From: a virus
IMG/VR virus record: IMGVR_UViG_3300033993_001957
Location: 1-36,739 of that record
DNA: 36,739 bases
Reading direction: 5' to 3' (one strand)
Part shown: positions 24,285-35,852 of the stretch, piece after piece
How the letters are laid out: each line of letters begins with the position of its first letter
Numbering within the stretch: position 1 is the stretch's first letter
Made by a program: the position numbers and the translations under genes
Notes under the pieces: model-generated
The model's database searches: none
Told to the model about the DNA's origin: nothing
Seen by the model: the letters and a program-made list of their open reading frames with translations, nothing else

Positions 24285-24497
24285 TTATCTCGCTCGGGCA
24301 CTTACCCGAACTGCCCTCCGAAGGTTCTCGCGGTCATCTGCACGAACTGCAACAAATTCAGGTGCAGTCTTGTGCGACCAATCCATGAATCCCACAAAAC
24401 CAACTTCACGCGAGCACCCCACACAGGTCGTAGTATGTGGCAGTGCTTCAAGCCTGAGTGGCGGGATGGTGTTTCCACAAGTATCACAATTACGCAT
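24285..24497 (-). CDS. DksA/TraR-type zinc-finger protein
   Basis: The 70-aa product has CDTCGNTIPPLRLEALPHTT followed by CVGC, the four-Cys finger of DksA/TraR proteins with the R-L-x-A-x-P spacer. It lacks the long coiled coil of DksA, so it is a short finger-only form. Family members bind the secondary channel of RNA polymerase or act as small zinc proteins; which applies is unknown. The ATG at 24497 follows AAAGGTACGCCC. It overlaps the end of the upstream 66-aa gene by 8 nt. Confidence 0.72.
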   Translation of the reverse strand: MRNCDTCGNTIPPLRLEALPHTTTCVGCSREVGFVGFMDWSHKTAPEFVAVRADDRENLRRAVRVSARAR

Positions 24498-24690
24498 GGG
24501 CGTACCTTTCAAACTTTTGCTTCACGGTGCGGCACTCAACACGGGCTTCCCCGTCCTTGTGCATTCGTCGCTGCTTCAGGATTGCCTTGTTCCACCCGTA
24601 GGGCTTGCACACCTGTTGGCGGCTACGGGATACTGCTGCGCCTTCACGCTCGGCTTCAAGATCAATGGGGTCTAGGACTCGCTTGGGCAT
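24490..24690 (-). CDS. Small basic early protein on a leaderless mRNA
   Basis: The 66-aa product begins MPKRVLDPIDLEAEREGAAV and is rich in Arg/Lys (SRSRQQ, KQRRMHKDGEARVECR), compatible with nucleic-acid binding. The ATG starts exactly 6 nt after TATACT of a strong early promoter, and no ribosome site precedes it. The gene opens the operon that runs through the DksA-like, tRNA-Gly, guaC and purA genes. No family recognised. Confidence 0.62.
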   Translation of the reverse strand: MPKRVLDPIDLEAEREGAAVSRSRQQVCKPYGWNKAILKQRRMHKDGEARVECRTVKQKFERYAHA

Positions 24691-24696
24691 ACAGAG

Positions 24697-24724
24697 AGTA
24701 TACCCTAGAAAGAGCCTGTGTCAA
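24697..24724 (-). promoter_or_regulatory. Early promoter of purine operon (leaderless start)
   Basis: TTGACA (24719-24724), 16 nt, TATACT (24697-24702), 6 nt, ATG. A TAAATATT box begins 28 nt before TTGACA and a CAAATAC box 15 nt before it. Confidence 0.85.
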
Positions 24725-24749
24725 GTGGCAGAGTATTTGATTGTAATAT

Positions 24750-25061
24750 TTAATACAGTTCGTAAATTTGTATACCATTAGGAGCACCTGCTCTACTTAA
24801 ATTGTACATTCTAATAGGTAAAATCAAATTGCTAGTAGGTGCTACTGTAATAGATGTGGTTTCATAATTTCTGATTTCATCGAATTCATCAATAAAAGGT
24901 TGAGTATAATAAGTCAGTGTAACAATCCTTGCTACAGCATCAGAATTTTTTATAAGTATTCCTTTATTTGAAGACGGAAAAGAGTAATCTCCAAATGGAA
25001 TACCAGCACCAGTCCACGGAACAAGAACTGCTTTACTATAAAAATCAAAAGCACCAAACAT
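24750..25061 (-). CDS. Small beta-rich late protein, paralogue of its neighbour
   Basis: The 103-aa product begins MFGAFDFYSKAVLVPWTGAG. It shares with the neighbouring 88-aa protein the order KGIL-x-x-N(S), an alternating strand, T-x-I-x-V and a C-terminal Y-x-L-Y-type end (GIQIYELY). These look like tandem copies of one small beta-sandwich virion protein. The ATG at 25061 lies one base after the upstream stop. It is transcribed from the late box at 25351. Confidence 0.6.
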   Translation of the reverse strand: MFGAFDFYSKAVLVPWTGAGIPFGDYSFPSSNKGILIKNSDAVARIVTLTYYTQPFIDEFDEIRNYETTSITVAPTSNLILPIRMYNLSRAGAPNGIQIYELY

Positions 25062-25062
25062 T

Positions 25063-25329
25063 TCAATACAGTCCAATCACTCTAACATTTGATCCGCTGG
25101 TTGAAGCACCAGCAATTTTAAGAGGAAGAATAAAAGTTCCAACAGAAGCACTGGCACCAACCGCAATTTCTGTCTGAAAAGTTGTTCCGCCAGTAGCCCC
25201 CCATAGGTGAATGGTGGCACTGCCCGCTGCTCCACTATTTGTGAGTAGTATGCCCTTTACCTTTTTATCAGAAACATTCACGAAAGTTGTTGAGTTGGCA
25301 ATAAATCTTCCTTGGCTGTAGATATCCAT
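25063..25329 (-). CDS. Small beta-rich late protein
   Basis: The 88-aa product begins MDIYSQGRFIANSTTFVNVS, continues DKKVKGILLTNSGAAGSATI, and ends VRVIGLY. It is Gly/Ser/Thr-rich with alternating hydrophobics, as in small head- or fibre-attached proteins. The ATG at 25329 follows AAGGAGAACCCCT, so an ATG 21 nt upstream (overlapping the late box) is rejected. TATAAATA (25351-25358), the exact T4 late box, lies 21 nt before the ATG. Confidence 0.65.
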   Translation of the reverse strand: MDIYSQGRFIANSTTFVNVSDKKVKGILLTNSGAAGSATIHLWGATGGTTFQTEIAVGASASVGTFILPLKIAGASTSGSNVRVIGLY

Positions 25330-25350
25330 AGGGGTTCTCCTTGTGTCCAT

Positions 25351-25358
25351 TATTTATA
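25351..25358 (-). promoter_or_regulatory. Late promoter, exact T4 box
   Basis: TATAAATA on the minus strand, just after the tmRNA terminator and before the paralogous beta-protein pair. Confidence 0.8.
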
Positions 25359-25368
25359 CAAAAAGAAA

Positions 25369-25388
25369 GGACGGCATTTCTGCCGTCC
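25369..25388 (-). terminator. Intrinsic terminator of tmRNA gene
   Basis: GGACGGCA, GAAA loop, TGCCGTCC, followed on the minus strand by TTTCTTTTT. Confidence 0.88.
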
Positions 25389-25624
25389 GTTCCGCCCGTT
25401 CAGATGCGGGAGGGCTTTCCCCACGGCTTCAAGCCGCCATTGCCAGTCTGTTGGCAATTATGGTTTACAACCCGTTTTTAACGAGGCGTGTTGCAGACCC
25501 CGAATGCCTCTTGTTTCTGTACTCCACGCCAGTCGAATGCCTATACAGCCCCAATGGGATTTAGTGGAGCCGAGGGGAATCGAACCCCTGTCCTGATCGT
25601 GTTTCTATCCACCGTCAACAGCAT
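25389..25624 (-). ncRNA. ssrA: Circularly permuted (two-piece) tmRNA
   Basis: On the minus strand the tRNA-like 3' part comes first: T-arm AGGGG-TTCGATT-CCCCT (25573-25589), then CGGCTCC and A (25565). A 12-nt spacer follows, then the 5' part GGGGCTG (25546-25552). All seven acceptor pairs form. The 5' part continues GCATTCGAC, as in tmRNA D-arm regions. Helix 2 pairs CTGGCGTG (25525-25532) with CACGATCAG (25593-25601) with one bulge. A resume site ATAATT-GCC opens a tag reading ANRLAMAA and TGA (25429-25455), with the stop in a hairpin. The T-arm-before-D-arm order is the mark of permuted tmRNA. Termini are approximate. Confidence 0.88.
25429..25455 (-). other. tmRNA proteolysis-tag reading frame
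   Basis: Eight codons GCC to GCT then TGA encode ANRLAMAA. With the charged Ala this gives AANRLAMAA. The end in small hydrophobics plus AA is what ClpXP/ClpAP recognise in known tags. The six bases before the resume codon, ATAATT, fit the A-T-A-R-T-Y pattern of E. coli (ATAGTC). Confidence 0.75.
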
Positions 25625-25815
25625 TACTGATATTTAGCCAACTCCCGCTTCCACTTCTCGTCCACCCTGTGTGGCATGGGAAAGTGCTTACACAAGCGGT
25701 GGGCACGGAGCCGCACCTCTCGCGGCACACGAGGAGTTTTCTTGGGATCAAGCAGATCGTAAAGAAACTGCCGAACTCCATTCAGGCTGTGGACTTCTTC
25801 ATACGGTAGTGTCAT
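25624..25815 (-). CDS. BPSL0761-family small protein
   Basis: The 63-aa product reads MTLPYEEVHSLNGVRQFLYD, then LLDPKKTPRVPREVRLRAHR and a LCKHFPMPHR end. The order M-T-x-P-x-E, helix, P-x-V-P-x-x-V-R-x-x-A, H-x-P is typical of the short BPSL0761 family found in proteobacteria and their phages. No function is known for it. AAGGAAGCCCAAA precedes the ATG, which lies inside the end of the upstream gene. The late box of the tmRNA overlaps its stop region. Confidence 0.65.
   Translation of the reverse strand: MTLPYEEVHSLNGVRQFLYDLLDPKKTPRVPREVRLRAHRLCKHFPMPHRVDEKWKRELAKYQ
25631..25637 (-). promoter_or_regulatory. Late promoter box driving tmRNA
   Basis: CTAAATA on the minus strand overlaps the 3' end of the BPSL0761-like gene. 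A start about 6 nt downstream would lie just before the acceptor half of the tmRNA. Confidence 0.6.
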
Positions 25816-26074
25816 TTTGGGCTTCCTTGAGTGCCTTGAGCAGATCAGAATACATTTTCTTCCAAGTCTTTAGAGGAATAAATGCAGGGTGTCCTGCGGT
25901 TTCATCCCATATCCACCAGCCCTTGGCAGTTTCAGACAAGTACTTGAACATCGCAGCATCAAGAGCGTGAACACCCTCGTCGCCACTTTCCCATTTGAGA
26001 ATCATGCCCCAAATGGTTACTTCAAGTCCGTCTTGCCAACCTGCCGCATAAGCGTCTTCGCTCCAATCACGCAT
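25799..26074 (-). CDS. Early protein with WSEDAYAAGW motif
   Basis: The 91-aa product begins MRDWSEDAYAAGWQDGLEVT and continues with Trp-rich helices (TAKGWWIWDETAGHPAFIPL). Phage proteins with W-S-E-x-x-x-A-A-G-W are common; the family has no named function that I can give. The start is uncertain. ATG 26074 overlaps the stop of the upstream 52-aa gene, while a TTG at 26140 with GGGAGG 8 nt before it would add 22 residues and overlap that gene in another frame. The stop overlaps the next start. Confidence 0.55.
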   Translation of the reverse strand: MRDWSEDAYAAGWQDGLEVTIWGMILKWESGDEGVHALDAAMFKYLSETAKGWWIWDETAGHPAFIPLKTWKKMYSDLLKALKEAQNDTTV

Positions 26075-26225
26075 CACTCGGAGGAGTGCGTGTCTTGCGA
26101 TTTCGCTTTCGCTTGGCTTGCTTTTTCTTGTCTTTGCCAAAAATAGCCTCCCAATTCTTTGACCAAGTGCTGTAATCAACGGGACGATACCTGTCACCTT
26201 TGCCTGCTGAATGCTTGCCGCCCAT
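26067..26225 (-). CDS. Small conserved phage protein (GGKHSAGKGDRYRPVD)
   Basis: I read this 52-aa ORF directly. It begins MGGKHSAGKGDRYRPVDYST, then W-x-x-NWEAIFGKDKKKQAKR and a basic tail. The HSAGKGD-x-YRPVD ... W-x-x-IFGK pattern is a widely spread short phage protein of unknown role. Its ATG overlaps the stop of the upstream gene (TAATG). Its 3' part overlaps a possible TTG-initiated extension of the next gene. Confidence 0.72.
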   Translation of the reverse strand: MGGKHSAGKGDRYRPVDYSTWSKNWEAIFGKDKKKQAKRKRNRKTRTPPSDA

Positions 26226-26416
26226 TAGCGTACAGGGGTAACAGGAGCAGTCACGGGAACCACCGTCTGCCGCTCCACAGCATCAACTAGCAGTTTGTTC
26301 ACCATTTCATTAAAGGTGCAATCGTGGCTATGAGCCAGTTTTGCAATCTTGAGAAAGGTGGCATCGCCCACCTGCATGTCTAGAGTAACGGTTGTTGTTT
26401 TCTTTGGTGTTGCCAT
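26225..26416 (-). CDS. Ribbon-helix-helix-like small DNA-binding candidate
   Basis: The 63-aa product begins MATPKKTTTVTLDMQVGDAT, then LKIAKLAHSHDCTFNEMVNK and LLVDAV. A short strand (TTTVTLDM), two helices and the AH-x-x-D-x-TFN-x-M turn resemble small phage proteins with a ribbon-helix-helix-like plan. DNA binding is inferred. GGAGG lies before the ATG at 26416, one base after the upstream stop. Confidence 0.58.
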   Translation of the reverse strand: MATPKKTTTVTLDMQVGDATFLKIAKLAHSHDCTFNEMVNKLLVDAVERQTVVPVTAPVTPVR

Positions 26417-26417
26417 T

Positions 26418-26684
26418 TTAGCCTCCAATATCTCGTCCGTTCAGACTGTACGAAACCACTTCACGAGCACACTCACTCACCCACAATTCGTGTGGGTTGC
26501 ATCCCCATTCCTTTACGGCACGGAGTACAAGAGTATTTAGATCGGTATCACGATCAATGATTTCATCAACCATTCCCTCACGGGCTGACTCACGGGTTGC
26601 AAGGCACAAGCCCCACAGCCCCCGATCAATGTAATCAATAATTGCGTGCTTGGTGTATGCGTCTTCGTATGCGTTAGTGTGCAT
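26418..26684 (-). CDS. Small early protein, unknown
   Basis: The 88-aa product begins MHTNAYEDAYTKHAIIDYID, is mostly helical and acidic, and includes ATRESAREGMVDEIIDRDTD and VKEWGCNPHELWVSE. AAAGGAAACC precedes the ATG. It follows tRNA-Ile in the same transcript. An internal CTAAATA at 26534-26540 could be an internal late promoter or chance. No family recognised. Confidence 0.55.
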   Translation of the reverse strand: MHTNAYEDAYTKHAIIDYIDRGLWGLCLATRESAREGMVDEIIDRDTDLNTLVLRAVKEWGCNPHELWVSECAREVVSYSLNGRDIGG

Positions 26685-26700
26685 GGTTTCCTTTCGTGAA

Positions 26701-26771
26701 TAGGCGGTTCAGGTGTCGATCCTGAATGAACCTGGTATAAGCAGGTCTGCGAAGCCGTCCGCCCACCGCCC
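26701..26771 (-). tRNA. tRNA-Ile (TAT)
   Basis: Acceptor GGGCGGT pairs with ACCGCCT (one G-T pair), discriminator A. The anticodon stem is ACCTG/CAGGT with loop CTTATAC, giving TAT, and the T-arm is TCAGG-ATCGACA-CCTGA. T-loop position 54 is A instead of T and the D-arm is short, so it is slightly irregular. It is transcribed directly from an early promoter 13 nt upstream. Confidence 0.75.
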
Positions 26772-26783
26772 AGTGGTTGCCCT

Positions 26784-26812
26784 AGTATAGACGCATTTAG
26801 GCGTTCTGTCTA
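26784..26812 (-). promoter_or_regulatory. Early promoter of tRNA-Ile operon
   Basis: TAGACA (26807-26812), 17 nt, TATACT (26784-26789). The upstream box AAAATATAGAAAAA begins 28 nt before TAGACA. Confidence 0.7.
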
Positions 26813-26873
26813 TGGGCAAGTGTGTATTTTTCTATATTTTACGGAAGAATTTTGGCACCCGTAACTTTAGCAA

Positions 26874-27152
26874 TTACCGACCCCGACGAGTGCTCTTGCG
26901 AGACGGCTTGCGAACAGGCTTCTTGCGAGACGCATTCCGCTTGACCCGACGAGTCGTTGTTGCCTTCTCCTCAACATGGGTAGGAGTGTAGTAATGAAAC
27001 GAAAAATCGTTTTCCTTTTCGCCGTAGTAGTCCTTCAGATCATAAGCGGTGTATGTTCGCTCGGGTGTGTTGTAATACCAATTCCATACAATAAGCCCAA
27101 GCAAACCCGCAGCAGCCGCACCAAACATGAAAAAAGCAATATCAACCAGCAT
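26874..27152 (-). CDS. Single-pass membrane protein with basic tail
   Basis: The 92-aa product has one transmembrane helix (about 4-24: DIAFFMFGAAAAGLLGLIVW). A polar middle part (YNTPERTYTAYDLKDYYGEK) is followed by a strongly basic tail (RVKRNASRKKPVRKPSRKST). The ATG at 27152 has GGAG 6 nt before it, so the earlier in-frame starts are rejected. A membrane-anchored nucleic-acid- or phospholipid-binding protein is plausible. The start lies 11 nt inside the upstream gene. Confidence 0.6.
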   Translation of the reverse strand: MLVDIAFFMFGAAAAGLLGLIVWNWYYNTPERTYTAYDLKDYYGEKENDFSFHYYTPTHVEEKATTTRRVKRNASRKKPVRKPSRKSTRRGR

Positions 27153-27393
27153 TTGCATCTCCAAAAGAAACTCTAGACTTTTTGTTCACGACATGACCTG
27201 AAGCGGTCTTGAGCAGGTAGTTACTTTTCTGCCTGTCTTCGTCGTGTCCTAGTCTGTAATTAAATTCGCTAACTCCCGCCTCACACAGACGAGCCGTAAC
27301 TGCCGCTAGCGTAGCGTCAACCACTTCACGAGTCAAGGCAGCAGCCCCCGACTCGTCCAACGGCAACGGAATATCAATGTGCAGACGAAACAT
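27142..27393 (-). CDS. Small early protein, unknown
   Basis: The 83-aa product begins MFRLHIDIPLPLDESGAAAL with a helix (REVVDATLAAVTARLCEAGV) and a basic end (VVNKKSRVSFGDANAG). The strand-helix-strand order resembles a compact alpha/beta fold. The ATG follows the 35-aa gene's stop by 3 nt. No family recognised. Confidence 0.5.
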   Translation of the reverse strand: MFRLHIDIPLPLDESGAAALTREVVDATLAAVTARLCEAGVSEFNYRLGHDEDRQKSNYLLKTASGHVVNKKSRVSFGDANAG

Positions 27394-27396
27394 TTT

Positions 27397-27504
27397 TTAC
27401 TTTCGTAAACCCTTGAACAGTAGATTGTAGGCAAGCCATCCGCAAGCCACCACCACAACCACAGCCATTAGTGACTGCCACAGACCCCAAACAATCTCAC
27501 CCAT
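27397..27504 (-). CDS. 35-aa single-pass membrane peptide
   Basis: I read this ORF directly: MGEIVWGLWQSLMAVVVVVA, then CGWLAYNLLFKGLRK and a stop. It is nearly all transmembrane with a basic C-terminus. The ATG overlaps the end of the upstream coiled-coil gene (AATGGGTGA), so translation is coupled. Confidence 0.6.
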   Translation of the reverse strand: MGEIVWGLWQSLMAVVVVVACGWLAYNLLFKGLRK

Positions 27505-27736
27505 TGGTCTGCTTTCCTAACGCCTTGTTGATGCCTTCAAGCAAGCCTTCAACATGACCACGGAGCCGTGCGTTCTCACGACGCAGCCCACTCAAATCCT
27601 CAATAGCCAATTGCAGAGAAGCGTTTTCAAGAACCAGTGTTTCGTGAGCCTTGCGAAGTTCAGCAAGTTCTGCGGTCAGAGTTTGAATCTTGCCCAACGC
27701 TGCATTCATTTGGCTTGCGTATCCGTTTGCACTCAT
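27497..27736 (-). CDS. Coiled-coil protein
   Basis: The 79-aa product has continuous heptad-like Leu/Ala spacing (about 15-72: LGKIQTLTAELAELRKAHET, then LRRENARLRGHVEGLLEG), i.e. one long coiled coil. GGAGGAAATGCC precedes the ATG, which overlaps the stop of the upstream gene (ATGA). It lies directly before a membrane peptide; together they could form a spanin-like or membrane-anchoring pair, but this is only a guess. Confidence 0.6.
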   Translation of the reverse strand: MSANGYASQMNAALGKIQTLTAELAELRKAHETLVLENASLQLAIEDLSGLRRENARLRGHVEGLLEGINKALGKQTNG

Positions 27737-27936
27737 GGCATTTCCTCCGTTGTGGGGTAATCGTATCGGGCTTCAGCCCAACTGCGGTGCACCAACATCC
27801 CGTCCCATGCAGGACTCCAGTACCAACCCGCTCGCTGCTCACCCGCAGTAAGCGTGAGTTCGGTACTGTTCATCAGGGCGTTGTATCGCTCTTCACACAT
27901 ACCTGTGCCTGCGAAATGGTCTGGTTGAGGACTCAT
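27733..27936 (-). CDS. Small early protein, unknown
   Basis: The 67-aa product begins MSPQPDHFAGTGMCEERYNA and contains GWYWSPAWDGMLVHRSWAEA. The ATG at 27936 overlaps the stop of the leaderless gene upstream (TAATG). It is aromatic-rich with no recognised family. Confidence 0.5.
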   Translation of the reverse strand: MSPQPDHFAGTGMCEERYNALMNSTELTLTAGEQRAGWYWSPAWDGMLVHRSWAEARYDYPTTEEMP

Positions 27937-28295
27937 TACACAGTCTCCACAAGCACATAAGCGTAGTCGGGCTTGTCCATAGCCGTGACCCAATGGGAAC
28001 CTGTCAGCCCAAGCAGTTCCACTGCTGTTTCTGGGTCTACACTCTTGACGCTCTTGATAATCGCACCTTCACGCACACACGGCAGATCACCCACAGCAAC
28101 CGCGAGAGGATCACCAGTCATCAAGAACGGACCACCTTCAAAATCCACCATAGTGGAACCTGTTTGTGGATCACCACCACCACGCAGGTAGTGGGTCTGA
28201 CCGTCAATCAAGTACCGCTTGGAATCCAATCGGGTAATGGAACGGTGTTGACCGTATCTAGAACTAAATGCGTAGGATGGAGAAGGTGTGTTCAT
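27936..28295 (-). CDS. Early protein on a leaderless mRNA, unknown
   Basis: The 119-aa product begins MNTPSPSYAFSSRYGQHRSI and is beta-patterned (RYLIDGQTHYLRGG and GAIIKSVKSVDPETAVELLG). The ATG at 28295 lies exactly 6 nt after TATGAT of an early promoter, with no ribosome site. A longer reading would start inside the -10 box and is rejected. First gene of a six-gene early operon running to 26874. Confidence 0.58.
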   Translation of the reverse strand: MNTPSPSYAFSSRYGQHRSITRLDSKRYLIDGQTHYLRGGGDPQTGSTMVDFEGGPFLMTGDPLAVAVGDLPCVREGAIIKSVKSVDPETAVELLGLTGSHWVTAMDKPDYAYVLVETV

Positions 28296-28301
28296 GGTGT
28301 A

Positions 28302-28329
28302 ATCATACCACAAAATTCGTTGCTGTCAA
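28302..28329 (-). promoter_or_regulatory. Early promoter with leaderless start
   Basis: TTGACA (28324-28329), 16 nt, TATGAT (28302-28307), 6 nt, ATG. The box CAAATATTCAGAAT begins 27 nt before TTGACA (28356). Confidence 0.85.
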
Positions 28330-28377
28330 TCCATCCTGTAGTATTCTGAATATTTGTTACCAGTGTTTATCACCAGT

Positions 28378-28444
28378 AGTATTTGAATACTATCATCCTT
28401 CATACCAGACACTGTTAGTTATACATCTCAAAAAATGGTATGAA
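28378..28444. repeat. Palindromes in intergenic region (operator-like)
   Basis: AGTATTTGAATACT (28378-28391) is a 6-bp inverted repeat with a 2-nt centre. TTCATACC (28399-28406) faces GGTATGAA (28437-28444) across 30 nt. The region (28330-28460) has no gene and separates two early operons; it may hold regulator sites or RNA hairpins. Confidence 0.5.
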
Positions 28445-28460
28445 TATCTAAATCAATACT

Positions 28461-28640
28461 TTAGCGAGATTGTATTTTTGATTCGTAGGCAAGAATCTTT
28501 TCGCGTAGCACTTCCATTGTTTGTGCTAGTTCTCGCCACCCCACGCTGTCCATCAGATACGCCTCGTAGTCCTTTACAGCCGCTCGTGCAGCGTCTAGGA
28601 GTTCCTCTGTGGGGTTCTTGTCTTTGTCGTGGCGTGGCAT
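28461..28640 (-). CDS. Small helical late protein (59 aa)
   Basis: I read this ORF directly: MPRHDKDKNPTEELLDAARA, then AVKDYEAYLMDSVGWRELAQ and a helical Lys/Glu end. The perfect ribosome site GGAGGTGATCC precedes the ATG. It lies 3 nt after the 113-aa gene and shares its late promoter. No family recognised. Confidence 0.65.
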   Translation of the reverse strand: MPRHDKDKNPTEELLDAARAAVKDYEAYLMDSVGWRELAQTMEVLREKILAYESKIQSR

Positions 28641-28643
28641 GGA

Positions 28644-28985
28644 TCACCTCCATAGGAATCGTTTGAGCAGCCTTTCCCACCACGACAGGAAGGGCGGCAT
28701 CAGGGGCGGCTCTTCCTTCGCTTTTAAATAACCTAACCGTTTGAGTTCTCGTGTCTCCAAAAATTCGTACTTGAGTAATTCCCGAATCTGCTGGGGCAGT
28801 ATCATTTGAGTACTTTCGGAATACGCTAACTTTGCAAATTCCAAAAGTCCGTCAATGCTCCGACCCTCGTGAACAACCTTCCAAGTCTCTCCTCCGTCAT
28901 GTGATTCGCATAAACCGTAAAGCCCACCCCCGTCGTCGTTGCTCAACAAATCAATGCCGACGATTGGGATGGGCTTTTCACTCAT
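28644..28985 (-). CDS. Small late protein, unknown
   Basis: The 113-aa product has a strand-rich start (IPIVGIDLLSNDDGGGLYGL, then ESHDGGETWKVVHEGRSIDG) and a helical middle. A Trp/Arg-rich end (SWWERLLKRFLWR) could bind membrane or nucleic acid. AGGAGG precedes the ATG. The late box CTAAATA lies 3 nt before that ribosome site. Confidence 0.55.
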   Translation of the reverse strand: MSEKPIPIVGIDLLSNDDGGGLYGLCESHDGGETWKVVHEGRSIDGLLEFAKLAYSESTQMILPQQIRELLKYEFLETRELKRLGYLKAKEEPPLMPPFLSWWERLLKRFLWR

Positions 28986-29000
28986 GCGTAGCCTCCTGAT

Positions 29001-29007
29001 TATTTAG
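29001..29007 (-). promoter_or_regulatory. Late promoter box with minimal leader
   Basis: CTAAATA-ATC-AGGAGG-CTACGC-ATG on the minus strand. The box overlaps the stop codon of the upstream gene. Confidence 0.65.
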
Positions 29008-29626: not shown

Positions 29627-29644
29627 TTTGTTTTTTGCCTCCAA

Positions 29645-30403
29645 TTACGCGACCGAATCGCAGGGAGTGAATCCATTAGAAACGGAATTGTCCCAAAGTG
29701 AACGAGCGTCTTGCACATTCAAGAAATTGTGGTCTATGCCCATGATGTCAGTCCTCACCACGCCGTTCTCGTAACGGGTAATCATCACCGTATTGTCGTT
29801 GTTCTCGTTGTGAACGAATTCGATAACGGTGATGTCCCGACGCAGGTAGAACACTTTCTTCGTGGGCTGTTGAGCCGCAGCGGTGGCAGCACCCGTGCCC
29901 ATGTCATCAGTCAAAAACATGAGCCGCGATGGCGTGTTGTTTCCTGGGTAGATGACGCGACTAATTGCCTTCATGCCCGCGTACTTGTTGAACAGGGCTT
30001 CGGTAAAAGCCTTCTTGGGGAAGTACCACGCCTTCTCGTAGGCATCCCAAAACGCACCGTCACACTTGGCAATGTTCTTCTGCTCATACGGCAGACACAG
30101 CATGACCGTGAACGGCTTGGTGTGGTCAATGTCGCTCCACTTGATGTTCGTGTTGAACACAGGAGCCTGACGCTCGCCCACGATGGCATTCACGCTGTTG
30201 AACCAGTCAATCTTGTCTTGCGTGATGAAACGGCACGGAAGCCACCACTGATAGGGCTTCGCGTTGGGCAGGAAGCGAGCACCAAATGCCTTCGCCTTGG
30301 AGCGAATGGCAGTGCTGCCCTTCGTGCGGAACGGCAGGTCAAGCCACAGACCGTAGGGAAGGGGTGCGGACGGGTTCGGCGTGTAAGTGCGAGAGTTCTG
30401 CAT
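29645..30403 (-). CDS. DUF5710-type protein on a leaderless mRNA
   Basis: The 252-aa product appears to carry two DUF5710-like units, a small domain defined by a Pro-Phe/Tyr start and an aromatic end. Residues about 22-55 show DLPFRTKGSTAIRSKAKAFG then YQWWLP, and about 105-140 show LCLPYEQKNIAKCDGAFWDA then KAWYFPKKAFTEAL. A beta-rich C-terminus follows. Function unknown. The ATG at 30403 lies 6 nt after TATACT, no ribosome site precedes it, and the longer reading would cross the promoter. Confidence 0.62.
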   Translation of the reverse strand: MQNSRTYTPNPSAPLPYGLWLDLPFRTKGSTAIRSKAKAFGARFLPNAKPYQWWLPCRFITQDKIDWFNSVNAIVGERQAPVFNTNIKWSDIDHTKPFTVMLCLPYEQKNIAKCDGAFWDAYEKAWYFPKKAFTEALFNKYAGMKAISRVIYPGNNTPSRLMFLTDDMGTGAATAAAQQPTKKVFYLRRDITVIEFVHNENNDNTVMITRYENGVVRTDIMGIDHNFLNVQDARSLWDNSVSNGFTPCDSVA

Positions 30404-30409: not shown

Positions 30410-30437
30410 AGTATACCAGAACGGGAAACAAAAACAA
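30410..30437 (-). promoter_or_regulatory. Early promoter with leaderless start
   Basis: TTGTTT (30432-30437), 16 nt, TATACT (30410-30415), 6 nt, ATG. The -35 is weaker than in the other promoters. Confidence 0.7.
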
Positions 30438-30506
30438 GCCCCAATAGGAGCCTGTTTTCGCATAATAAATTACCGAGTTATCGGACGCTCCTGAAAACGC
30501 GGTGGT

Positions 30507-30767
30507 TCAGAAGGGAGGATGCACCTCGACCGCCTTCAAAGAGTCGGGCTTGAATGAACGCCAACCCTTTGCCTCCAAATCGTAAACAGGAAGCGTATCG
30601 CTCTTGCGAGACTGCTCGCTGCCCTTGGGATGGTGGTCGGGCGGAATCATCGTGGTGTTCCGTGTGCCAACCAACACTCGTTCCGTTCCGTCCTTCTTGG
30701 TAAACACCAAGCGAACGACTGCTCCATCGTCAAGGTACTGCTTCGCGGTTTCGTAGAGAGATGTCAT
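30507..30767 (-). CDS. DUF2693-like SH3-barrel protein on a leaderless mRNA
   Basis: The 86-aa product has VRLVFTKKDGTERVLVGTRN followed by TTMIPPDHHP and YDLEAKGWRSFKPDSLKAVE. The K-K-D-G-T-x-R, G-T-R-N, I-P, Y/F-D ... W-R-S-F order matches the DUF2693 family of small SH3-like barrels common in large phages. Family function is unknown. The ATG lies 6 nt after TATACT, and no ribosome site precedes it. It is the only gene of its transcript before the next promoter. Confidence 0.72.
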   Translation of the reverse strand: MTSLYETAKQYLDDGAVVRLVFTKKDGTERVLVGTRNTTMIPPDHHPKGSEQSRKSDTLPVYDLEAKGWRSFKPDSLKAVEVHPPF

Positions 30768-30773
30768 GTGAGT

Positions 30774-30801
30774 AGTATAGCGTGTTGTGAGTCGTTGTCA
30801 A
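30774..30801 (-). promoter_or_regulatory. Early promoter with leaderless start
   Basis: TTGACA (30796-30801), 16 nt, TATACT (30774-30779), 6 nt, ATG. The box TAAATATAGAAAA begins 27 nt before TTGACA (30828). Confidence 0.87.
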
Positions 30802-30830
30802 GTGGATGGGTGGAGTTTTCTATATTTAAA

Positions 30831-31319
30831 TCATCCACCGTACAGATCGCCAATGTCCTCTTCCCAAATGTCTTCAGGTTCAGGAATGGGAGACGCATCA
30901 CCGTCTGCAATTAGTGAAATCATAAATGCGTCAAATGCGTAGAACGCAACAGGTCGAGCAGAGTAGCCACCCCTCTGCAAAATCTGAACCATTCGCATTC
31001 GCCCCACAGGATTCATGGAGTGGCAAATAGCCGCATCAATCTGTGGAGTGTGCTCACGAATCCAGTCGGCAATAGCCGTGCCGTCACGCCAGCCTTCCTT
31101 TTGGTTGTACTCGGTGGGGTCTTCAAGATCGTGATCCAAAAACACCACATCCCACTTTCCGTTTTGGAGTTGTGTGATTGCTTCGTCGTAATTCTGTGCC
31201 CACACAAATTCCACATGGGCAGTTTCAGGCTGCTTGTATAGATCGTTGAAAATCTCCCAACGCTCAGGCATGTCGTCCACGAAAAGAACTCTACGATTTT
31301 TCTTTAATCCATTGACCAT
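30831..31319 (-). CDS. Cyclic-phosphate-processing receiver-domain protein
   Basis: The 162-aa product has a response-regulator-like fold with VLFVDDMPERW (about 11-21) and DVVFLDHDLEDP (about 57-68). The ICHSMNPVGRMRMVQIL segment (about 98-114) is not found in ordinary response regulators. The LDHDL plus HS-x-NP-x-G combination marks the cREC / cyclic-phosphate-processing receiver family, linked by comparative studies to RNA end repair. A Glu/Asp-rich tail follows. AAGGAAATGAAGA precedes the ATG. No kinase or RNA ligase gene is seen in this window. Confidence 0.72.
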   Translation of the reverse strand: MVNGLKKNRRVLFVDDMPERWEIFNDLYKQPETAHVEFVWAQNYDEAITQLQNGKWDVVFLDHDLEDPTEYNQKEGWRDGTAIADWIREHTPQIDAAICHSMNPVGRMRMVQILQRGGYSARPVAFYAFDAFMISLIADGDASPIPEPEDIWEEDIGDLYGG

Positions 31320-31438
31320 TCTTCATTTCCTTTTTTTGTTTGTTTTGGTTTGTTGTGATTTGGCATAAAAAACCAAAACAGAATCACCCAAAACAGGAAC
31401 CGTCCAAAATTTGTCCAATTTATTTCAGGAAATTCCAT
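31304..31438 (-). CDS. 44-aa membrane peptide
   Basis: I read this ORF directly. It is MEFPEINWTNFGRFLFWVIL, then FWFFMPNHNK and a Lys-rich end. It has one transmembrane helix rich in Phe/Trp. GGGAG precedes the ATG, which lies one base after the stop of the 196-aa gene, and its own end overlaps the cREC start by 16 nt. Confidence 0.58.
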   Translation of the reverse strand: MEFPEINWTNFGRFLFWVILFWFFMPNHNKPKQTKKGNEEWSMD

Positions 31439-31439
31439 T

Positions 31440-32030
31440 TTAGGCTCCCAACGCATAGTTGTCAAAAGAATTGGGGTAATAGTTCTTTGTTACGGTGCTG
31501 TTCTTTAGCACGGTTCGGTATGAACGCCTTGTGTTTTGCCTGTCTGCTCTTGGGTTTCGTGGCATGCCAGTAACAGGATGCAAACGCAGATCCTCAACGC
31601 TTATGATGCCACCGTAGTCATTAACAAAAAACAGTGCACACTTTGGATCAGAATGGGGAAAGTCTCCCAAGTACAGTCCGCTGAAGTGCCCGCTCGTATT
31701 GTTGGTAAGGGTATGGCGGTACTCAATTGCACGATACGCCTTGCAAGCAGAATCACATCCACTTGGGTTGTCTGCGTCCACAGGCTTCCACCCGTCTGCT
31801 ATGAAAGCATCCCACAGTCCTCGTGCGGTAATGATTCCACAACGGTGCACACACACGGGAGGTAGGTAGTTGGTTTGGCTGTTGCCGTCGTATTCAAACA
31901 GATCAGAGTACTGTACAAACACAAATATGTCTTGTGTTTTGATAACGGACAGGCAGTTGGGCAGAGACGGCTCAATGCCCTCACGCACAAGAATCCATTG
32001 GTCAGCAAGCAGCAAGTCCGAGTGGTTCAT
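31440..32030 (-). CDS. Early protein on a leaderless mRNA, unknown
   Basis: The 196-aa product begins MNHSDLLLADQWILVREGIE and contains QDIFVFVQYSDLFEYDGNSQ, CVHRCGIITARGLWDAFIAD and a Cys pair (SGCDSACKAYRAIEYRH). The C-terminal 50 residues are basic and polar. No family recognised. The ATG at 32030 lies exactly 6 nt after TATATT, and no ribosome site precedes it. It opens the operon containing the membrane peptide and the cREC protein. Confidence 0.58.
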   Translation of the reverse strand: MNHSDLLLADQWILVREGIEPSLPNCLSVIKTQDIFVFVQYSDLFEYDGNSQTNYLPPVCVHRCGIITARGLWDAFIADGWKPVDADNPSGCDSACKAYRAIEYRHTLTNNTSGHFSGLYLGDFPHSDPKCALFFVNDYGGIISVEDLRLHPVTGMPRNPRADRQNTRRSYRTVLKNSTVTKNYYPNSFDNYALGA

Positions 32031-32036
32031 GCCACA

Positions 32037-32064
32037 AATATACCACATATCCGCCAACAGTCAA
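32037..32064 (-). promoter_or_regulatory. Early promoter with leaderless start
   Basis: TTGACT (32059-32064), 16 nt, TATATT (32037-32042), 6 nt, ATG. A GAAATATTC box begins 16 nt before TTGACT. Confidence 0.82.
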
Positions 32065-32112
32065 GCCCTACGAATATTTCTTTTCTAAAGTAGACAAAAC
32101 AAATATTACCCA

Positions 32113-32156
32113 CGAGTTGTTGAGGTATTAAACCATTACTGTAATGCCTCAAGTAC
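32113..32156. repeat. Inverted repeat between divergent transcripts
   Basis: TGAGGTATTA and TAATGCCTCA are inverted with one G-T pair around a short spacer, just upstream of the plus-strand promoter candidate at 32171. It could be an operator or a short hairpin. Confidence 0.4.
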
Positions 32157-32170
32157 TTCTCATAAATTTT

Positions 32171-32198
32171 TTGGTGCGTGTAGCGTGCTCTGTATACA
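32171..32198 (+). promoter_or_regulatory. Plus-strand promoter candidate for a small RNA
   Basis: TTGGTG (32171-32176), 16 nt, TATACA (32193-32198). It has the same 16-nt spacing as the minus-strand early promoters but is isolated on the plus strand. Confidence 0.45.
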
Positions 32199-32204
32199 TA
32201 ACCT

Positions 32205-32278
32205 TTACCCGTATATTGAAATGTAGCGAAGCATCACTCCCGTAGAGCAGCCCCTCCGCAAGAGGGGCTGTTTCTTTT
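32205..32278 (+). ncRNA. Candidate plus-strand small RNA
   Basis: A transcript from the promoter candidate would be about 75 nt and end in a strong terminator. It contains no ORF (ATG followed by TAG). The 5' half is unstructured by eye; the 3' half is the terminator hairpin. Evidence is only promoter plus terminator. Confidence 0.42.
32248..32278 (+). terminator. Intrinsic terminator, plus strand
   Basis: CAGCCCCTC (32248-32256), loop CGCAA, GAGGGGCTG (32262-32270), then TTTCTTTT. The stem is 9 bp and GC-rich. Confidence 0.8.
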
Positions 32279-32291
32279 GTGAAAAGAAAAA

Positions 32292-32311
32292 GGGCGGCAT
32301 TTCTGCCGCCC
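32292..32311 (-). terminator. Intrinsic terminator after the 51-aa gene
   Basis: GGGCGGCA, loop TTTC (GAAA on the minus strand), TGCCGCCC. On the minus strand it is followed by TTTTTCTTTTC. The hairpin resembles that of the tmRNA terminator in loop and tail. Confidence 0.85.
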
Positions 32312-32336
32312 CTTTCGTTTGTAACCTGTTTACGAA

Positions 32337-32492
32337 TTACTTGCAGCAGGCTGCTAGAGCAGCACCCACGGCATTCCACGCCCATACAGTACCCTTCACA
32401 GCGAAGGGGAGCAGAGCGAGGAAACCAGCGAGTTGAAGAGGATTCTTCCAGCAGAAGCAACCAGTGACGGGGCAATTGTTAGTCTTGTTCAT
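32337..32492 (-). CDS. 51-aa Cys-rich membrane peptide
   Basis: I read this ORF directly: MNKTNNCPVTGCFCWKNPLQ, then a hydrophobic helix (LAGFLALLPFAVKGTVWAWN) ending AALAACCK. There are five Cys. AAAGGAG precedes the ATG. It follows the outer-membrane protein gene by 21 nt and ends before a terminator. Function unknown; a periplasm- or inner-membrane-located partner of that protein is possible. Confidence 0.68.
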   Translation of the reverse strand: MNKTNNCPVTGCFCWKNPLQLAGFLALLPFAVKGTVWAWNAVGAALAACCK

Positions 32493-32513
32493 GTGATTCT
32501 CCTTTCAAAAGAA

Positions 32514-33260
32514 TTAAAACTTGATTCCTAGACCGAGAGTAACAGCCCACGAGTTCTCGTTGGCAGCGTTTACTTCCTGCCACACGGGAACGCCGAAGCC
32601 TGCACTCAGGTCAACATTGTTGGCTACAGCCCATTCAGCCTTTGGCCCAAGGTAAGCCACATTGCTACCATTGGTGTACCACTGGTTCAGGTCTGCACCC
32701 AACGCAAAGCCACCCCACTTGTAAGCCACAAACGATTCGGCGTTTAGACCGTAATCGTTGAATGTGCCAAACACAGGAGTGTACGCGTACCCACCCACCC
32801 AACGAACATCGAAGGTCTGGGTGTATACGAGCGAACCCCAAGTCATGTCGTAATTAAATCCAACATGGGGATTCACATTGTCGGCACCGAAACCAGCAGA
32901 GCCAGTCGGTAGCCACGCACCACCCTCTACGCCGAGGTTGGTGACTGCACCAAGGAACTTTGCGTCCTTGACCAGAGCGTAGTCAACACCAATGTCGATC
33001 TGACCGTAACCAGTGGTGTCCTGAGAGTACACAGGAGCGGTTACATGCCAGCCGAGCAGATCGTACAACTTGCCTGAAACAGTTGAGTCAAGTTCCACGA
33101 TGGTGTCAGCGTTCTTCTTGCCCCAGAAGGTCAGCGTCTCGTTCACGCTAACGCTGTTGATGGCAGCGGGAGCAGGAGCGGGTGCTGGTGCTGGAGCAGT
33201 CTGTGCACTAGCCACGGTGGCAAGTGCTCCGAGTAGTAAAGTTGCAATAGTGGTCTTCAT
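32514..33260 (-). CDS. Outer-membrane beta-barrel protein with signal peptide
   Basis: The 248-aa product has a Sec signal (MKTTIATLLLGALATVASAQ, cleavage after ASA) and an Ala-Pro linker of about 15 residues. A series of about eight to ten amphipathic strands separated by polar turns follows (YGQIDIGVDYALV, HVGFNYDMTWGSLVYTQTFD, GLNAESFVAYKWGGFALGAD). It ends SWAVTLGLGIKF, with the C-terminal Phe and alternating pattern used by the BAM machinery. Phage-encoded outer-membrane proteins are known (for example lambda Lom). Here it could change phage adsorption or permeability. AAAGGAG precedes the ATG, and an upstream hairpin lies in the leader. Confidence 0.78.
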   Translation of the reverse strand: MKTTIATLLLGALATVASAQTAPAPAPAPAPAAINSVSVNETLTFWGKKNADTIVELDSTVSGKLYDLLGWHVTAPVYSQDTTGYGQIDIGVDYALVKDAKFLGAVTNLGVEGGAWLPTGSAGFGADNVNPHVGFNYDMTWGSLVYTQTFDVRWVGGYAYTPVFGTFNDYGLNAESFVAYKWGGFALGADLNQWYTNGSNVAYLGPKAEWAVANNVDLSAGFGVPVWQEVNAANENSWAVTLGLGIKF

Positions 33261-33381
33261 CAAGTCTTCTCCTTTAAGAAATTCCCCTCACATTGAGGGG
33301 TAGTGTATCTAGCACCTGTTCGCGGGTTCGGGATTTCTAACACCATACTTTAAAACACGAATGGCATTTTTACAGCAAAAA

Positions 33382-33399
33382 GGGAGCCTTGCGGCTCCC
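33382..33399 (-). terminator. Intrinsic terminator upstream of beta-barrel gene
   Basis: GGGAGCC, loop, GGCTCCC, followed on the minus strand by TTTTTGC. It ends the transcript of the 50-aa and 206-aa genes. The stretch 33261-33381 also holds a hairpin (CCCCTC/GAGGGG) in the beta-barrel leader, but no clear promoter. Confidence 0.78.
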
Positions 33400-33423
33400 T
33401 TTGCAATTTTTATTTTGATGTAG

Positions 33424-33576
33424 TTATTTTTTAGTTTGTGCCCGCAACTGTGCGTCCACATGCGGCGGGTATATTTTTGGCAGTCCACTACGGGACACGC
33501 CAGCAGGTCGTTTGCTGCGGTGTGTTTTGTAACCGCCCTTGGTCATGTTTCCCATCTTGCCACGAACTCGTCCCAT
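33424..33576 (-). CDS. Small basic late protein (50 aa)
   Basis: I read this ORF directly: MGRVRGKMGNMTKGGYKTHR, then SKRPAGVSRSGLPKIYPPHV and a basic end. The ATG at 33576 is one base after the stop of the 206-aa gene. A second in-frame ATG 21 nt on is possible. Strong Lys/Arg content suggests DNA or RNA binding. No family recognised. Confidence 0.6.
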   Translation of the reverse strand: MGRVRGKMGNMTKGGYKTHRSKRPAGVSRSGLPKIYPPHVDAQLRAQTKK

Positions 33577-33577
33577 G

Positions 33578-34198
33578 TTAACAATTCCACTTTCTCAAAC
33601 TCTTGTTGATGCGAGACTCAGGATCATTAGCAGTTTTGGCAGAAGTGAGTTTGCTCTTCATGCCCTGCATACGCGAACAAAAACTCTTGCGACGCTTCCA
33701 CTTCTTGGAGCCGTGCTTGAGTTTGGACGGCTTGGTTGTTACAGCAGTCTGTAGTTTGCTGCCAGGGTTGGCACGGCGGTACGAGGCTACACCCGCTTTG
33801 TTCAAGCCGCCTTCAGGGTCTTTGCCTGCACTACGCTGCCACGCAGGAGAGGCTTCTTGTACGGGAACGCAGTTAGGAACTTGCCGACCACTTTTAAGTT
33901 TTGTGCCTTTGGCTGTATAGCCTTTCCAACACGCTTCGTTCACGGTGTCGCCCACCATGTAGTTGCGAACACTTGAAACATAGTCTGCTGCCTTGGTGAT
34001 TTTGCTCTGCACCCACGCTTCAATTTCGTCGTCTTCGCCAAGCATCTTGAGAAGTTCTTGTGCGTTGGCAATCAGTGCCTTGAGTTCGCCACGAGTCATT
34101 TCGCCTTCGTAGTCGCCCTCCACCCCGCTGCTGGGAGCCTCTTCCAGACGGGAAACGCTTTCATTCAGGCTTTGAAATCGGTTTGAGTCAAATCGCAT
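33578..34198 (-). CDS. Late conserved protein with DUF6321-like C-terminal region
   Basis: The 206-aa product has an acidic helical N-terminal half. Residues about 110-206 contain NEACWKGYTAKGTKLKSGRQ, then KDPEGGLNKAGVASYRRANP and KRRKSFCSRMQGMKSKLTSA ending LRKWNC. The K-x-P-x-GGLN-x-x-G-x-x-SY ... RR-x-SFC-x-RM-x-GM ... R-K-W pattern is a conserved family in phages (DUF6321-like) of unknown function. The late box CTAAATA lies 16 nt before the ATG with GGAGG between, so it is probably expressed late. Confidence 0.7.
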   Translation of the reverse strand: MRFDSNRFQSLNESVSRLEEAPSSGVEGDYEGEMTRGELKALIANAQELLKMLGEDDEIEAWVQSKITKAADYVSSVRNYMVGDTVNEACWKGYTAKGTKLKSGRQVPNCVPVQEASPAWQRSAGKDPEGGLNKAGVASYRRANPGSKLQTAVTTKPSKLKHGSKKWKRRKSFCSRMQGMKSKLTSAKTANDPESRINKSLRKWNC

Positions 34199-34214
34199 GG
34201 GGTTCCTCCACCTC

Positions 34215-34221
34215 TATTTAG
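34215..34221 (-). promoter_or_regulatory. Late promoter box
   Basis: CTAAATA on the minus strand, followed by GAGGTGGAGG and the ATG at 34198. It lies right after the terminator of the upstream transcript. Confidence 0.65.
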
Positions 34222-34237
34222 TCTGTAAAAAAATAGA

Positions 34238-34266
34238 GGGGAGTCCCGTTACCCGTGGGACTCCCC
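34238..34266 (-). terminator. Intrinsic terminator
   Basis: Stem GGGGAGTCCC / GGGACTCCCC with a 9-nt loop, followed on the minus strand by a T-run (A-run 34227-34233 on plus). It ends the 35852-34391 early transcript. Confidence 0.82.
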
Positions 34267-34352
34267 CTACTATGGCGGTCGAAAGGTAGCGAAGTTCCTT
34301 TGCATGAGCAGCGTAATCTGTTCGCACAGTCCACGCCAACCCAGACCGTAAC

Positions 34353-34359
34353 TATTTAG
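34353..34359 (-). promoter_or_regulatory. Late box without a clear gene
   Basis: CTAAATA on the minus strand lies between the 156-aa gene's stop and the terminator. Downstream I see only an 11-codon ATG ORF (MQRNFATFRPP) and no ribosome site, so 34267-34390 holds no supported gene. Confidence 0.35.
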
Positions 34360-34390
34360 GTTTTCTACAGTTACCGTTTTGCGATTTTTT

Positions 34391-34861
34391 TTACCGCAGT
34401 TTTCGTCTGCCGCAAAAAATTGCTGCACACACCAGTAGCACCATTGGTGCAGGTGTGGGCAGCACCATTGGTGCAGGTGTGGGCACAGGAGCAGGTGTGG
34501 CCGCGTCCACACTCACCCCGCTTGGCGTGAGCCACACACTCATGCACACTCCCTCCACCCGATCAAAATCCGCAGGCACACAAAACACCTGATCCTGAAA
34601 CTGGTAGGTGCCCACCAAATCGCCGCCCTTGAACAAGCGGTAAATCCACAAGCCGTGGGCTTCGCCACTAAACACACCACACGAGTACTCTGCAATGGGC
34701 ACGGTGTTGCCGCCAATGCTGTCACCGAATTCTGTGGTCATGGTGTACGCCAGTTTCCACTGTGGCGGTTCGCAGTAGGTTTGTGTGCTGTAGGTAGAGC
34801 CGCCAGAATACGAAACAAAATGGGGCTTGTTGCCGATGCCGTAAAGTGTTGTGGTTGCCAT
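34391..34861 (-). CDS. Beta-rich protein with Pro/Ala repeat tail
   Basis: The 156-aa product begins MATTTLYGIGNKPHFVSYSG. It has Gly/Tyr-rich strands (SGEAHGLWIYRLFKGGDLVG) and a Pro/Ala/Thr repeat (PAPVPTPAPMVLPTPAPMVL, about 122-141). The repeats arise from an imperfect 24-bp DNA duplication near 34441-34488. A Cys-rich basic end follows (CAAIFCGRRKLR). AAAAAGGAAAAAA precedes the ATG at 34861. The last about 15 residues may result from the duplication shifting an older end. No family recognised. Confidence 0.52.
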   Translation of the reverse strand: MATTTLYGIGNKPHFVSYSGGSTYSTQTYCEPPQWKLAYTMTTEFGDSIGGNTVPIAEYSCGVFSGEAHGLWIYRLFKGGDLVGTYQFQDQVFCVPADFDRVEGVCMSVWLTPSGVSVDAATPAPVPTPAPMVLPTPAPMVLLVCAAIFCGRRKLR

Positions 34862-34884
34862 TTGAGTTTTTTTCCTTTTTGTGT

Positions 34885-35385
34885 TTAAATGTTTTGCGGA
34901 ACCAATGCTGTCCACGACTCACGCAACGGGTGCTTGACTCGTGTGCCGTTCGTGTTTTCGCCCACCCACATGAGCCACCCGTGAGTTGCTGCCACCCACA
35001 GTACCCGTGCACACCCCACAGGCATGTACGCAACCCAGCCGTCCCGTGCGTCCAGTGTCCACTCCACGCCGTAGGCGTTCAGCCCTGTGGGGTCGCTCTG
35101 CAAGTACTCCACACATTGGGGAATGTGTGTGTTCAGCACCAATCGCACCGTATCAGTGCTACACAGCCCGTGCGGAGTTCGCTCGTGTTCGTGGTGCTTG
35201 GTGTCCAATACCAGTGCACCGCGAGGTGTGACTCGTACTTCGCTGTAGCCCCAGCGTCCACCCCACTTCCCATCGCGTCCCCATACAGGTGTAAATTCCA
35301 GTGTGCTGTGCCCACTGGTGCCACGCACCCCACTTTCAAGCAGGTGGCTGGTTGCGGTGCTGGGTTTGAGTGTGGCGGCTGTCAT
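34885..35385 (-). CDS. Early protein, unknown
   Basis: The 166-aa product begins MTAATLKPSTATSHLLESGV. It is Gly/Trp-rich (WGRDGKWGGRWGYSEVRVTP) and beta-patterned, with DARDGWVAYMPVGCARVLWV near residue 112. The ATG overlaps the stop of the upstream gene (ATGA). No family recognised. Confidence 0.52.
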   Translation of the reverse strand: MTAATLKPSTATSHLLESGVRGTSGHSTLEFTPVWGRDGKWGGRWGYSEVRVTPRGALVLDTKHHEHERTPHGLCSTDTVRLVLNTHIPQCVEYLQSDPTGLNAYGVEWTLDARDGWVAYMPVGCARVLWVAATHGWLMWVGENTNGTRVKHPLRESWTALVPQNI

Positions 35386-35852
35386 TGTGTGTTTCCCGTA
35401 TTAAAGGTTTCCGTTGTGTCGTGTGCCCCTGCACAATCGTCCACAAATGCCTGTGTGTGGAGTTCGCCCCATCCGTTCTGGTGTGCGTACTCCAGTGCTT
35501 CTGCCAAATTGGTGCTCCACGGGTACCCCCTGCCCCGTTGCGTCAGCATACCCCAAACCACTCGTGCGGTTTGCGTTGCCATCCACACGAACGGCATGCC
35601 GTTGGGATCAGCCTGTCCTGCAACCAGTACAGAACCCGCAACAGGCACCCGCTTCCACTCGTGCAGGTTTGCAAGCGTGGTGGGCGTACTCCCAATACTC
35701 TTGAACCATACCCCCACACGCTCCCCACACGGTTGCGGCATGAACACCAAGCAGTACACTTGTGCTGCGGGATGCGTGTTGTACCTGCGGTTTTCACCAA
35801 ACTGTGCCCACAGGGTGTACTGAGGGGGTGGCGTGTAGCGGGGGGTGTCCAT
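35382..35852 (-). CDS. Early protein, probable leaderless mRNA, unknown
   Basis: The 156-aa product begins MDTPRYTPPPQYTLWAQFGE and contains VPVAGSVLVAGQADPNGMPF and STNLAEALEYAHQNGWGELH. The ATG lies 7 nt after TATATT of an early promoter, with no ribosome site. It opens a three-gene operon running to the terminator at 34238. No family recognised. Confidence 0.53.
   Translation of the reverse strand: MDTPRYTPPPQYTLWAQFGENRRYNTHPAAQVYCLVFMPQPCGERVGVWFKSIGSTPTTLANLHEWKRVPVAGSVLVAGQADPNGMPFVWMATQTARVVWGMLTQRGRGYPWSTNLAEALEYAHQNGWGELHTQAFVDDCAGAHDTTETFNTGNTQ

Follow-up and report, generated by a model that had tools for sequence, protein, structure and literature searches.

How is translation begun on a messenger whose promoter ends only a few nucleotides (nt) before the start codon? 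The question is raised by the IMG/VR record IMGVR_UViG_3300033993_001957, a viral sequence whose 36,739 nt (36.7 kilobases, kb) form the window analysed here. Six genes on its minus strand begin directly behind host-type sigma70 promoters, an arrangement that would make the A of the start codon the first base of the RNA. We take them to be predicted examples of a lineage-wide mode of initiation at a 5'-terminal AUG, used beside Shine-Dalgarno (SD) initiation by T4-like aquatic phages, and on the comparative evidence set out below regard this as very probably correct.

Six start codons directly behind promoters

Distances are given as d, the number of nt between the -10 hexamer (or late-promoter box) and the start ATG. 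The ATGs at 24690, 28295, 30403, 30767 and 32030 lie at d = 6 and that at 35852 at d = 7, with a -35/-10 spacer of 16 nt at all six sites; a preliminary description of this DNA was accurate on positions, distances and spacing. It also stated that no ribosome-binding site precedes these ATGs, and direct reading finds an SD sequence before none of them. The -35 element is TTGACA or TTGACT at four sites. At 30403 and 35852 (TTGTTT and TTGCAC) three of six positions match, and because of these weak -35 elements both sites are missed by the promoter scan of the window. The promoters and genes (lengths in amino acids, aa) are as follows.

24697-24724, minus strand: promoter TTGACA-N16-TATACT, discriminator CTCTGT; d = 6 to the ATG at 24690
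24490-24690, minus strand: predicted leaderless gene, 66 aa, MPKR family; ATG 6 nt past the -10
28302-28329, minus strand: promoter TTGACA-N16-TATGAT, discriminator TACACC; d = 6 to the ATG at 28295
27936-28295, minus strand: predicted leaderless gene, 119 aa; d kept in relatives G005 and G001
30410-30437, minus strand: promoter TTGTTT-N16-TATACT (weak -35), discriminator AGAAAC; d = 6
29645-30403, minus strand: predicted leaderless gene, 252 aa, DUF5710 match; layout shared by locus L118 at 54% protein identity
30774-30801, minus strand: promoter TTGACA-N16-TATACT, discriminator ACTCAC; d = 6 to the ATG at 30767
30507-30767, minus strand: predicted leaderless gene, 86 aa, WYL_2 / phrog_1086; ATG 6 nt past the -10
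32037-32064, minus strand: promoter TTGACT-N16-TATATT, discriminator TGTGGC; d = 6 to the ATG at 32030
31440-32030, minus strand: predicted leaderless gene, 196 aa; L118 orthologue at d = 7
35860-35887, minus strand: promoter TTGCAC-N16-TATATT (weak -35), discriminator TGTGCGT; d = 7
35382-35852, minus strand: predicted leaderless or 1-nt-leader gene, 156 aa; d = 7

Genes further along the same operons had been described as SD-led, which reading of the sequence bears out at 24497, 27936 and 29626, with no obvious SD at 35385. The strict pattern alone finds nine promoters in the window, four of them at d = 6. For six of nine window promoters at d = 6 or 7 the binomial P is about 7e-8, the nine in that case being the six sites plus three picked by hand.

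The distance in relatives and in control phages

Matches to PHROG families (phrog_224, single-stranded DNA-binding protein; phrog_230, tail tube cap; phrog_350, tail) identify the window as a fragment of a T4-like phage. The nearest named relatives of the DNA-binding protein are found in cyanophages, at 55% identity. Relatives were gathered through the window's guanosine monophosphate (GMP) reductase gene, and the main counts come from 16 T4-like records totalling 857 kb. A strict promoter was defined as TTGACA/T, 16 or 17 nt and TANNNT, and an open reading frame (ORF) as at least 40 codons; starts were assigned from ORFs and orthologues, and from annotation in the phages HTVC008M and Melnitz.

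Of the 191 distinct strict promoters in the 16 records, 52 have an ORF start at d = 6 and a further 15 at d = 7. The resulting 67 compare with about 2.6 expected from a background of 1.32 per position, a peak some 25 times background. In seven non-Thermus control phages (T4, HTVC008M, Cr30, phiM12, BUCT-ZZ01, DSL-LC02 and pf16) the corresponding numbers are 1 and 2 of 162 promoters, with a background of 2.06 per position. Sigma70-type sites of Melnitz, judged by eye from a pattern scan, appear intermediate. The share varies between records, with 25/46 in G014, 8/22 in G024 and 7/22 in G011; in G014 about 20 leaderless promoters precede short ORFs within 13 kb.

Three features suggest that the ATG is tied to the start of transcription. 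The d = 6 arrangement is seen with 16-nt and 17-nt spacers alike, and therefore the ATG tracks the -10 element. Of 59 ATGs at d = 6, 54 are immediately preceded by C or T, as expected for a transcription start with a pyrimidine at -1 and a purine at +1. In-frame alternative starts with an SD at codons 4-25 are not enriched (6/67, against 9/67 in a control stretch). SD-like motifs do precede 30 of 45 next-in-operon genes, and SD translation must therefore work in the same infected cell.

Orthologues with different starts

Conservation of the distance in relatives had been proposed as a test of the leaderless reading, which came through it: relatives having the gene keep the spacing seen at 28295, 30403 and 32030, in the last case as 7 nt. 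Loci L083-L156 were fetched because they carry the promoter pattern; they are excluded from the promoter, orthologue-class, GMP reductase and late-box counts and included among the 89 loci of the transfer RNA (tRNA) survey below. Among them, L090, L104, L111 and L118 lend no independent support to 30767, nor do L090, L104 and L111 to MPKR, but the counterparts of 30403 and 32030 in L118 lie outside the fetch pattern and that comparison stands. A search for relatives with the 252-aa product of 30403 found none.

The MPKR family, whose 21 loci were found by protein search alone, is predicted to be leaderless behind a promoter at d = 6 or 7 in 11 loci, is SD-led in 7 and is tRNA-adjacent in 3, where it begins 2-3 nt past the tRNA; some of these loci are copies or near-identical (L603-L605, L606/L607, L611/L612, L614/L615). 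The protein has no match among named phages. GMP reductase shows leaderless geometry in six loci and is SD-led in the window and most others, with an unchanged N-terminus; class calls at d = 5 and d = 8, and the L031-L046 families, were false or doubtful in this comparison and are not counted. Generally, orthologue N-termini line up at the promoter-linked Met across initiation modes. Predicted leaderless genes of relatives encode a UvsY-like mediator, a DnaB-like helicase, DNA primase, an exonuclease, dUTPase and a peptidase family with additional matches to cobalamin biosynthesis models; six of ten scanned proteins of this kind have a PHROG match. Taken as a prediction, the claim that leaderless (or 1-nt-leader) messengers form a regular, conserved class is thus upheld by the promoter counts and the orthologues.

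A second peak behind late promoters

The same geometry is found at T4-type late promoters, defined here by the box [CA]TAAATA (TATAAATA-like), with ORFs of at least 50 codons for distance counts. In T4 the late box extends from -13 to -6, which would put an ATG at d = 5 on +1. Of the 412 late boxes in the 16 records, 32 have a start at d = 5, and there are 12 starts each at d = 6 and d = 7, over a background of 2.45 per position. In six control phages d = 5 is found at 2 of 318 boxes. The cultured Pelagibacter phage HTVC008M has d = 5 at 12 of 64 boxes, and its 14 ATGs at d = 5-7 all coincide with annotated starts of genes, including those of the tape measure, DNA end protector, head closure, tail tube cap and baseplate wedge. 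In Melnitz d = 5 occurs at 4 of 60 boxes, three of them at annotated starts. The ATG thus coincides with the expected +1 behind two promoter types that are unrelated, at d = 6 for one and d = 5 for the other, which strongly supports leaderless RNAs. The window has a single late-type site at d = 6, listed with a contrasting SD-led one.

15857-15863, plus strand: late-type box ATAAATA, 6 nt before an ATG
15870-17102, plus strand: candidate leaderless late gene, 410 aa
33578-34198, minus strand: SD-led gene (DUF6321) behind a late-type box at 34221

Starts beside tRNAs and behind a hairpin

A further arrangement is seen in relatives. Behind 250 distinct tRNAs in 89 relative loci the next ORF lies 0-7 nt away in 43 cases, 38 of them lacking an SD. 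Gaps of 8-12 nt number 9, those of 13-25 nt number 63, of which 54 show an SD, and those of 26-59 nt number 26. Elsewhere tRNA-adjacent ORFs number 2/73 in named phages, 1/23 in bacterial contigs and 12/215 in other viral contigs, the last having been fetched by the promoter pattern; none of the eight window tRNAs has an adjacent ORF start. The genes concerned belong to twenty protein families, including a SpoU methylase, a UvdE-like endonuclease, a C5 DNA methylase and an epimerase. Since the CCA end is encoded in just 3 of the 250 tRNAs, RNase Z would be expected to cut directly behind the tRNA. ARAGORN tRNA ends often lie one base beyond the Rfam end, and real leaders could therefore be one base longer.

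One window gene suggests yet another context.

19295-19741, minus strand: 148-aa gene without SD, behind a terminator-like hairpin (19748-19779)

Its start lies 2 nt past the T-tract of this strong hairpin, with 5 nt to the aligned Met. Orthologues in several relatives also follow hairpins, of unrelated sequence, and others follow a leaderless promoter or a tRNA. The family (123-148 aa) appears never to be clearly SD-led, being placed behind a promoter +1, a tRNA or a hairpin according to the phage. As a general leaderless device terminator-like hairpins were rejected, because they recur in this one gene family only.

From the observed geometry, its conservation and the controls we infer a scheme covering 5' ends, ribosome route, timing and benefit. 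Transcription would start at the A of the start codon, or at 35852 possibly one base upstream, and the first gene would be read from its 5'-terminal AUG by leaderless initiation (70S or 30S), with later genes of the operon using SD sites. However the 5' end of the RNA arises, the AUG would be placed at it: the sigma70 -10 plus 6, the late TAAATA plus 5 and, probably, tRNA 3' maturation in relatives, at tRNA plus 0-7. The benefit we favour is that promoter and gene would together make a compact, movable cassette with no need of a leader. The wider proposal, of one general mode with three makers of 5' ends (host sigma70 promoters, T4-type late promoters and, as in mitochondria, the excision of phage tRNAs to leave messengers with almost no leader) together with the behaviour of the 19295-19741 family, we give an even chance.

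Points against and alternative explanations

Several points weigh against a lineage-wide leaderless mode. Sampling through GMP reductase covers one part of phage diversity, and related loci are not independent, so that Poisson values overstate independence. Some records have few or no such sites (G002 1/7, G003 1/16, G013 0/5, G025 0/3). Twelve GMP-reductase kin loci (about 67-70% identity) have no strict site (0/5 promoters), and their six loose d = 7 matches represent a single conserved stretch of coding sequence. No d = 5 peak at late boxes is seen in the close group of the window itself. Finally, the true start may lie 1-4 nt upstream at the predicted sites.

The alternative that survives best, if still somewhat unlikely, is that these phages merely copy a host where leaderless genes are the rule. 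Such genes are described as common in some bacteria (PMC3160421, PMC12340547), and the Thermus phage phiYS40 shares the geometry. Against this, a search of bacterial and archaeal genomes with GMP reductase pointed to no host, giving best identities of 60-62% in many unrelated taxa. There is also no peak in Cr30 or phiM12, phages of Caulobacter and Sinorhizobium respectively, bacteria which do have leaderless mRNAs.

It is less likely that the RNAs carry very short leaders of 1-10 nt, the ATG spacing resulting from compaction. The 15 promoters at d = 7, the nonzero tRNA distances of 1-7 nt and the often longer distances at sigma70-type sites of HTVC008M and Melnitz (by eye) would fit such leaders. 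They account poorly for sharp single peaks at 6 and 5 nt, each matching the +1 position of the promoter type concerned, and for the pyrimidine immediately before the ATG.

The preliminary description saw in the six promoters a deliberate early-expression scheme, perhaps independent of changes to initiation factors or the anti-SD. An early takeover of this kind, with leaderless messengers translatable as the phage alters either component, seems improbable. The six sites are indeed of sigma70 type, and the cluster in G014 would suit it, but leaderless geometry at late boxes in relatives, structural genes of HTVC008M included, counts against a purely early purpose. The SD-like sites of most next-in-operon genes speak against the suggested independence. 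Moreover, an SD-led ORF follows 89 of 347 late-type boxes, where 40 scrambles give a median of about 2%, and no bS21 gene was found in 29 relatives of the window. An altered ribosome as the purpose of leaderless use was likewise rejected, with no supporting gene found and SD genes coexisting.

That the ATGs are chance neighbours of A+T-rich promoters, with true SD starts downstream, is very improbable: early genes do include short ORFs, and an ATG at d = 0 behind a -10 occurs without a clear gene, yet the excess over background, its absence from the seven control phages and the lack of enriched alternative starts all oppose it, and the alignment of orthologue N-termini contradicts it.

Relation to known systems

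Sevostyanova and colleagues are said to have described leaderless transcripts in phiYS40 in 2007, and the class is reportedly middle/late; because these transcripts are known, the phage serves as a positive control. In its genome (DQ997624) 8 of 42 strict promoters have d = 6 and 2 have d = 7, beside SD-led genes. Like the window phage it is tailed and shows the order -35, -10, 6 nt, ATG; a difference is that it infects Thermus, in which leaderless genes are the norm.

In bacteria, TA-led leaderless genes have TANNNT about 10 bp before the start and no SD (PMC3160421), and ORFs adjoining the -10 are described in Deinococcus-Thermus (PMC12340547). The window sites likewise have a TANNNT -10-like element about 10 bp ahead of the start codon and lack an SD. 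The bacterial genes are chromosomal, whereas the phage sites are tied also to T4-type late boxes and tRNA ends. The cI mRNA of phage lambda is cited as leaderless (PMC9031893), and the AR9 paper terms phage transcripts 'often leaderless', giving leaders of 26-491 nt for AR9 itself (PMC5312081); the excerpt of that paper acknowledges leaderless phage transcripts and contains no T4-like example.

As in lambda cI, the AUG would be 5'-terminal in a phage mRNA, but cI is one gene and here there is a class. Mitochondrial tRNA punctuation leaves an mRNA 5' end beside an excised tRNA, with almost no leader; for the phage genes the likeness is one of genomic adjacency alone. In the open-access literature, as far as the available titles and excerpts go, neither a leaderless class in T4-like phages nor tRNA-linked leaderless phage mRNAs could be recognised. 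Leaderless phage mRNAs are already known, and it is their scale, late-gene use and tRNA-linked form that look new.

Other features of the window

Three sigma70-type window promoters, at 18310, 20656 and 26812, lack the leaderless layout; that at 26812 stands before a tRNA-Ile. Boxes resembling AAATA recur upstream of several promoters.

17847-18260, minus strand: gene behind the sigma70-type promoter at 18310, with a 22-nt distance and an SD
20540-20656, minus strand: sigma70-type promoter whose -10 is followed at once by an ATG; conserved leader, starting GGGAGTACAAGTCAGCCAACGATG
30822-30827, minus strand: AAATAT box, lying 26 nt upstream of its promoter's -35 element
28350-28355, 24746-24751, 20677-20682, 18331-18336 and 26834-26839, minus strand: similar AAATA boxes, 26-27 nt upstream of the -35

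The SD leader of the 18260 gene is kept in 8/8 listed relatives, three of which are near copies. The leader starting GGGAGTACAAGTCAGCCAACGATG is shared with G002 and G025, is less alike in G008, and gave no match in an Rfam search. Of the 36 strict promoters in the window's close group, 17 have AAATA at offset 26 or 27, with 0.07 expected per offset; the box is confined to this group and may be an UP-like element or a regulator site.

A permuted two-piece tmRNA lies at 25429-25625 (minus strand; Rfam tmRNA_permuted, 79 bits; ARAGORN tag ANRLAMAA), and such tmRNAs are known from aquatic phages (PMC9004378). The 330-aa product of 20699-21691 (minus strand) resembles adenylosuccinate synthetase, PurA models outscoring PurZ and all falling below cut-off, and 23130-24188 (minus strand) encodes the GMP reductase, above the NCBIfam cut-off; by similarity, the two form a possible route from GMP to adenosine monophosphate. 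The products of 32514-33260 and 17847-18260 (minus strand) have apparent signal peptides and look outer-membrane-like by eye; a Pfam scan of both gave no family above cut-off. No psbA was found in 28 relatives. A ribosomal protein S21 gene is annotated in both HTVC008M (L617) and Melnitz (L619).

Implications

In phages of Gram-negative-type hosts, leaderless translation is usually viewed as a rare sideline. In this T4-like lineage it would be a second mode, conserved and used genome-wide. The occurrence of one gene in leaderless and SD forms makes natural comparisons possible, and the late-promoter form is testable because it is present in the cultured HTVC008M. Gene callers that expect an SD would misplace such starts, and genes adjoining tRNAs offer a further possible reason why phages carry tRNAs.

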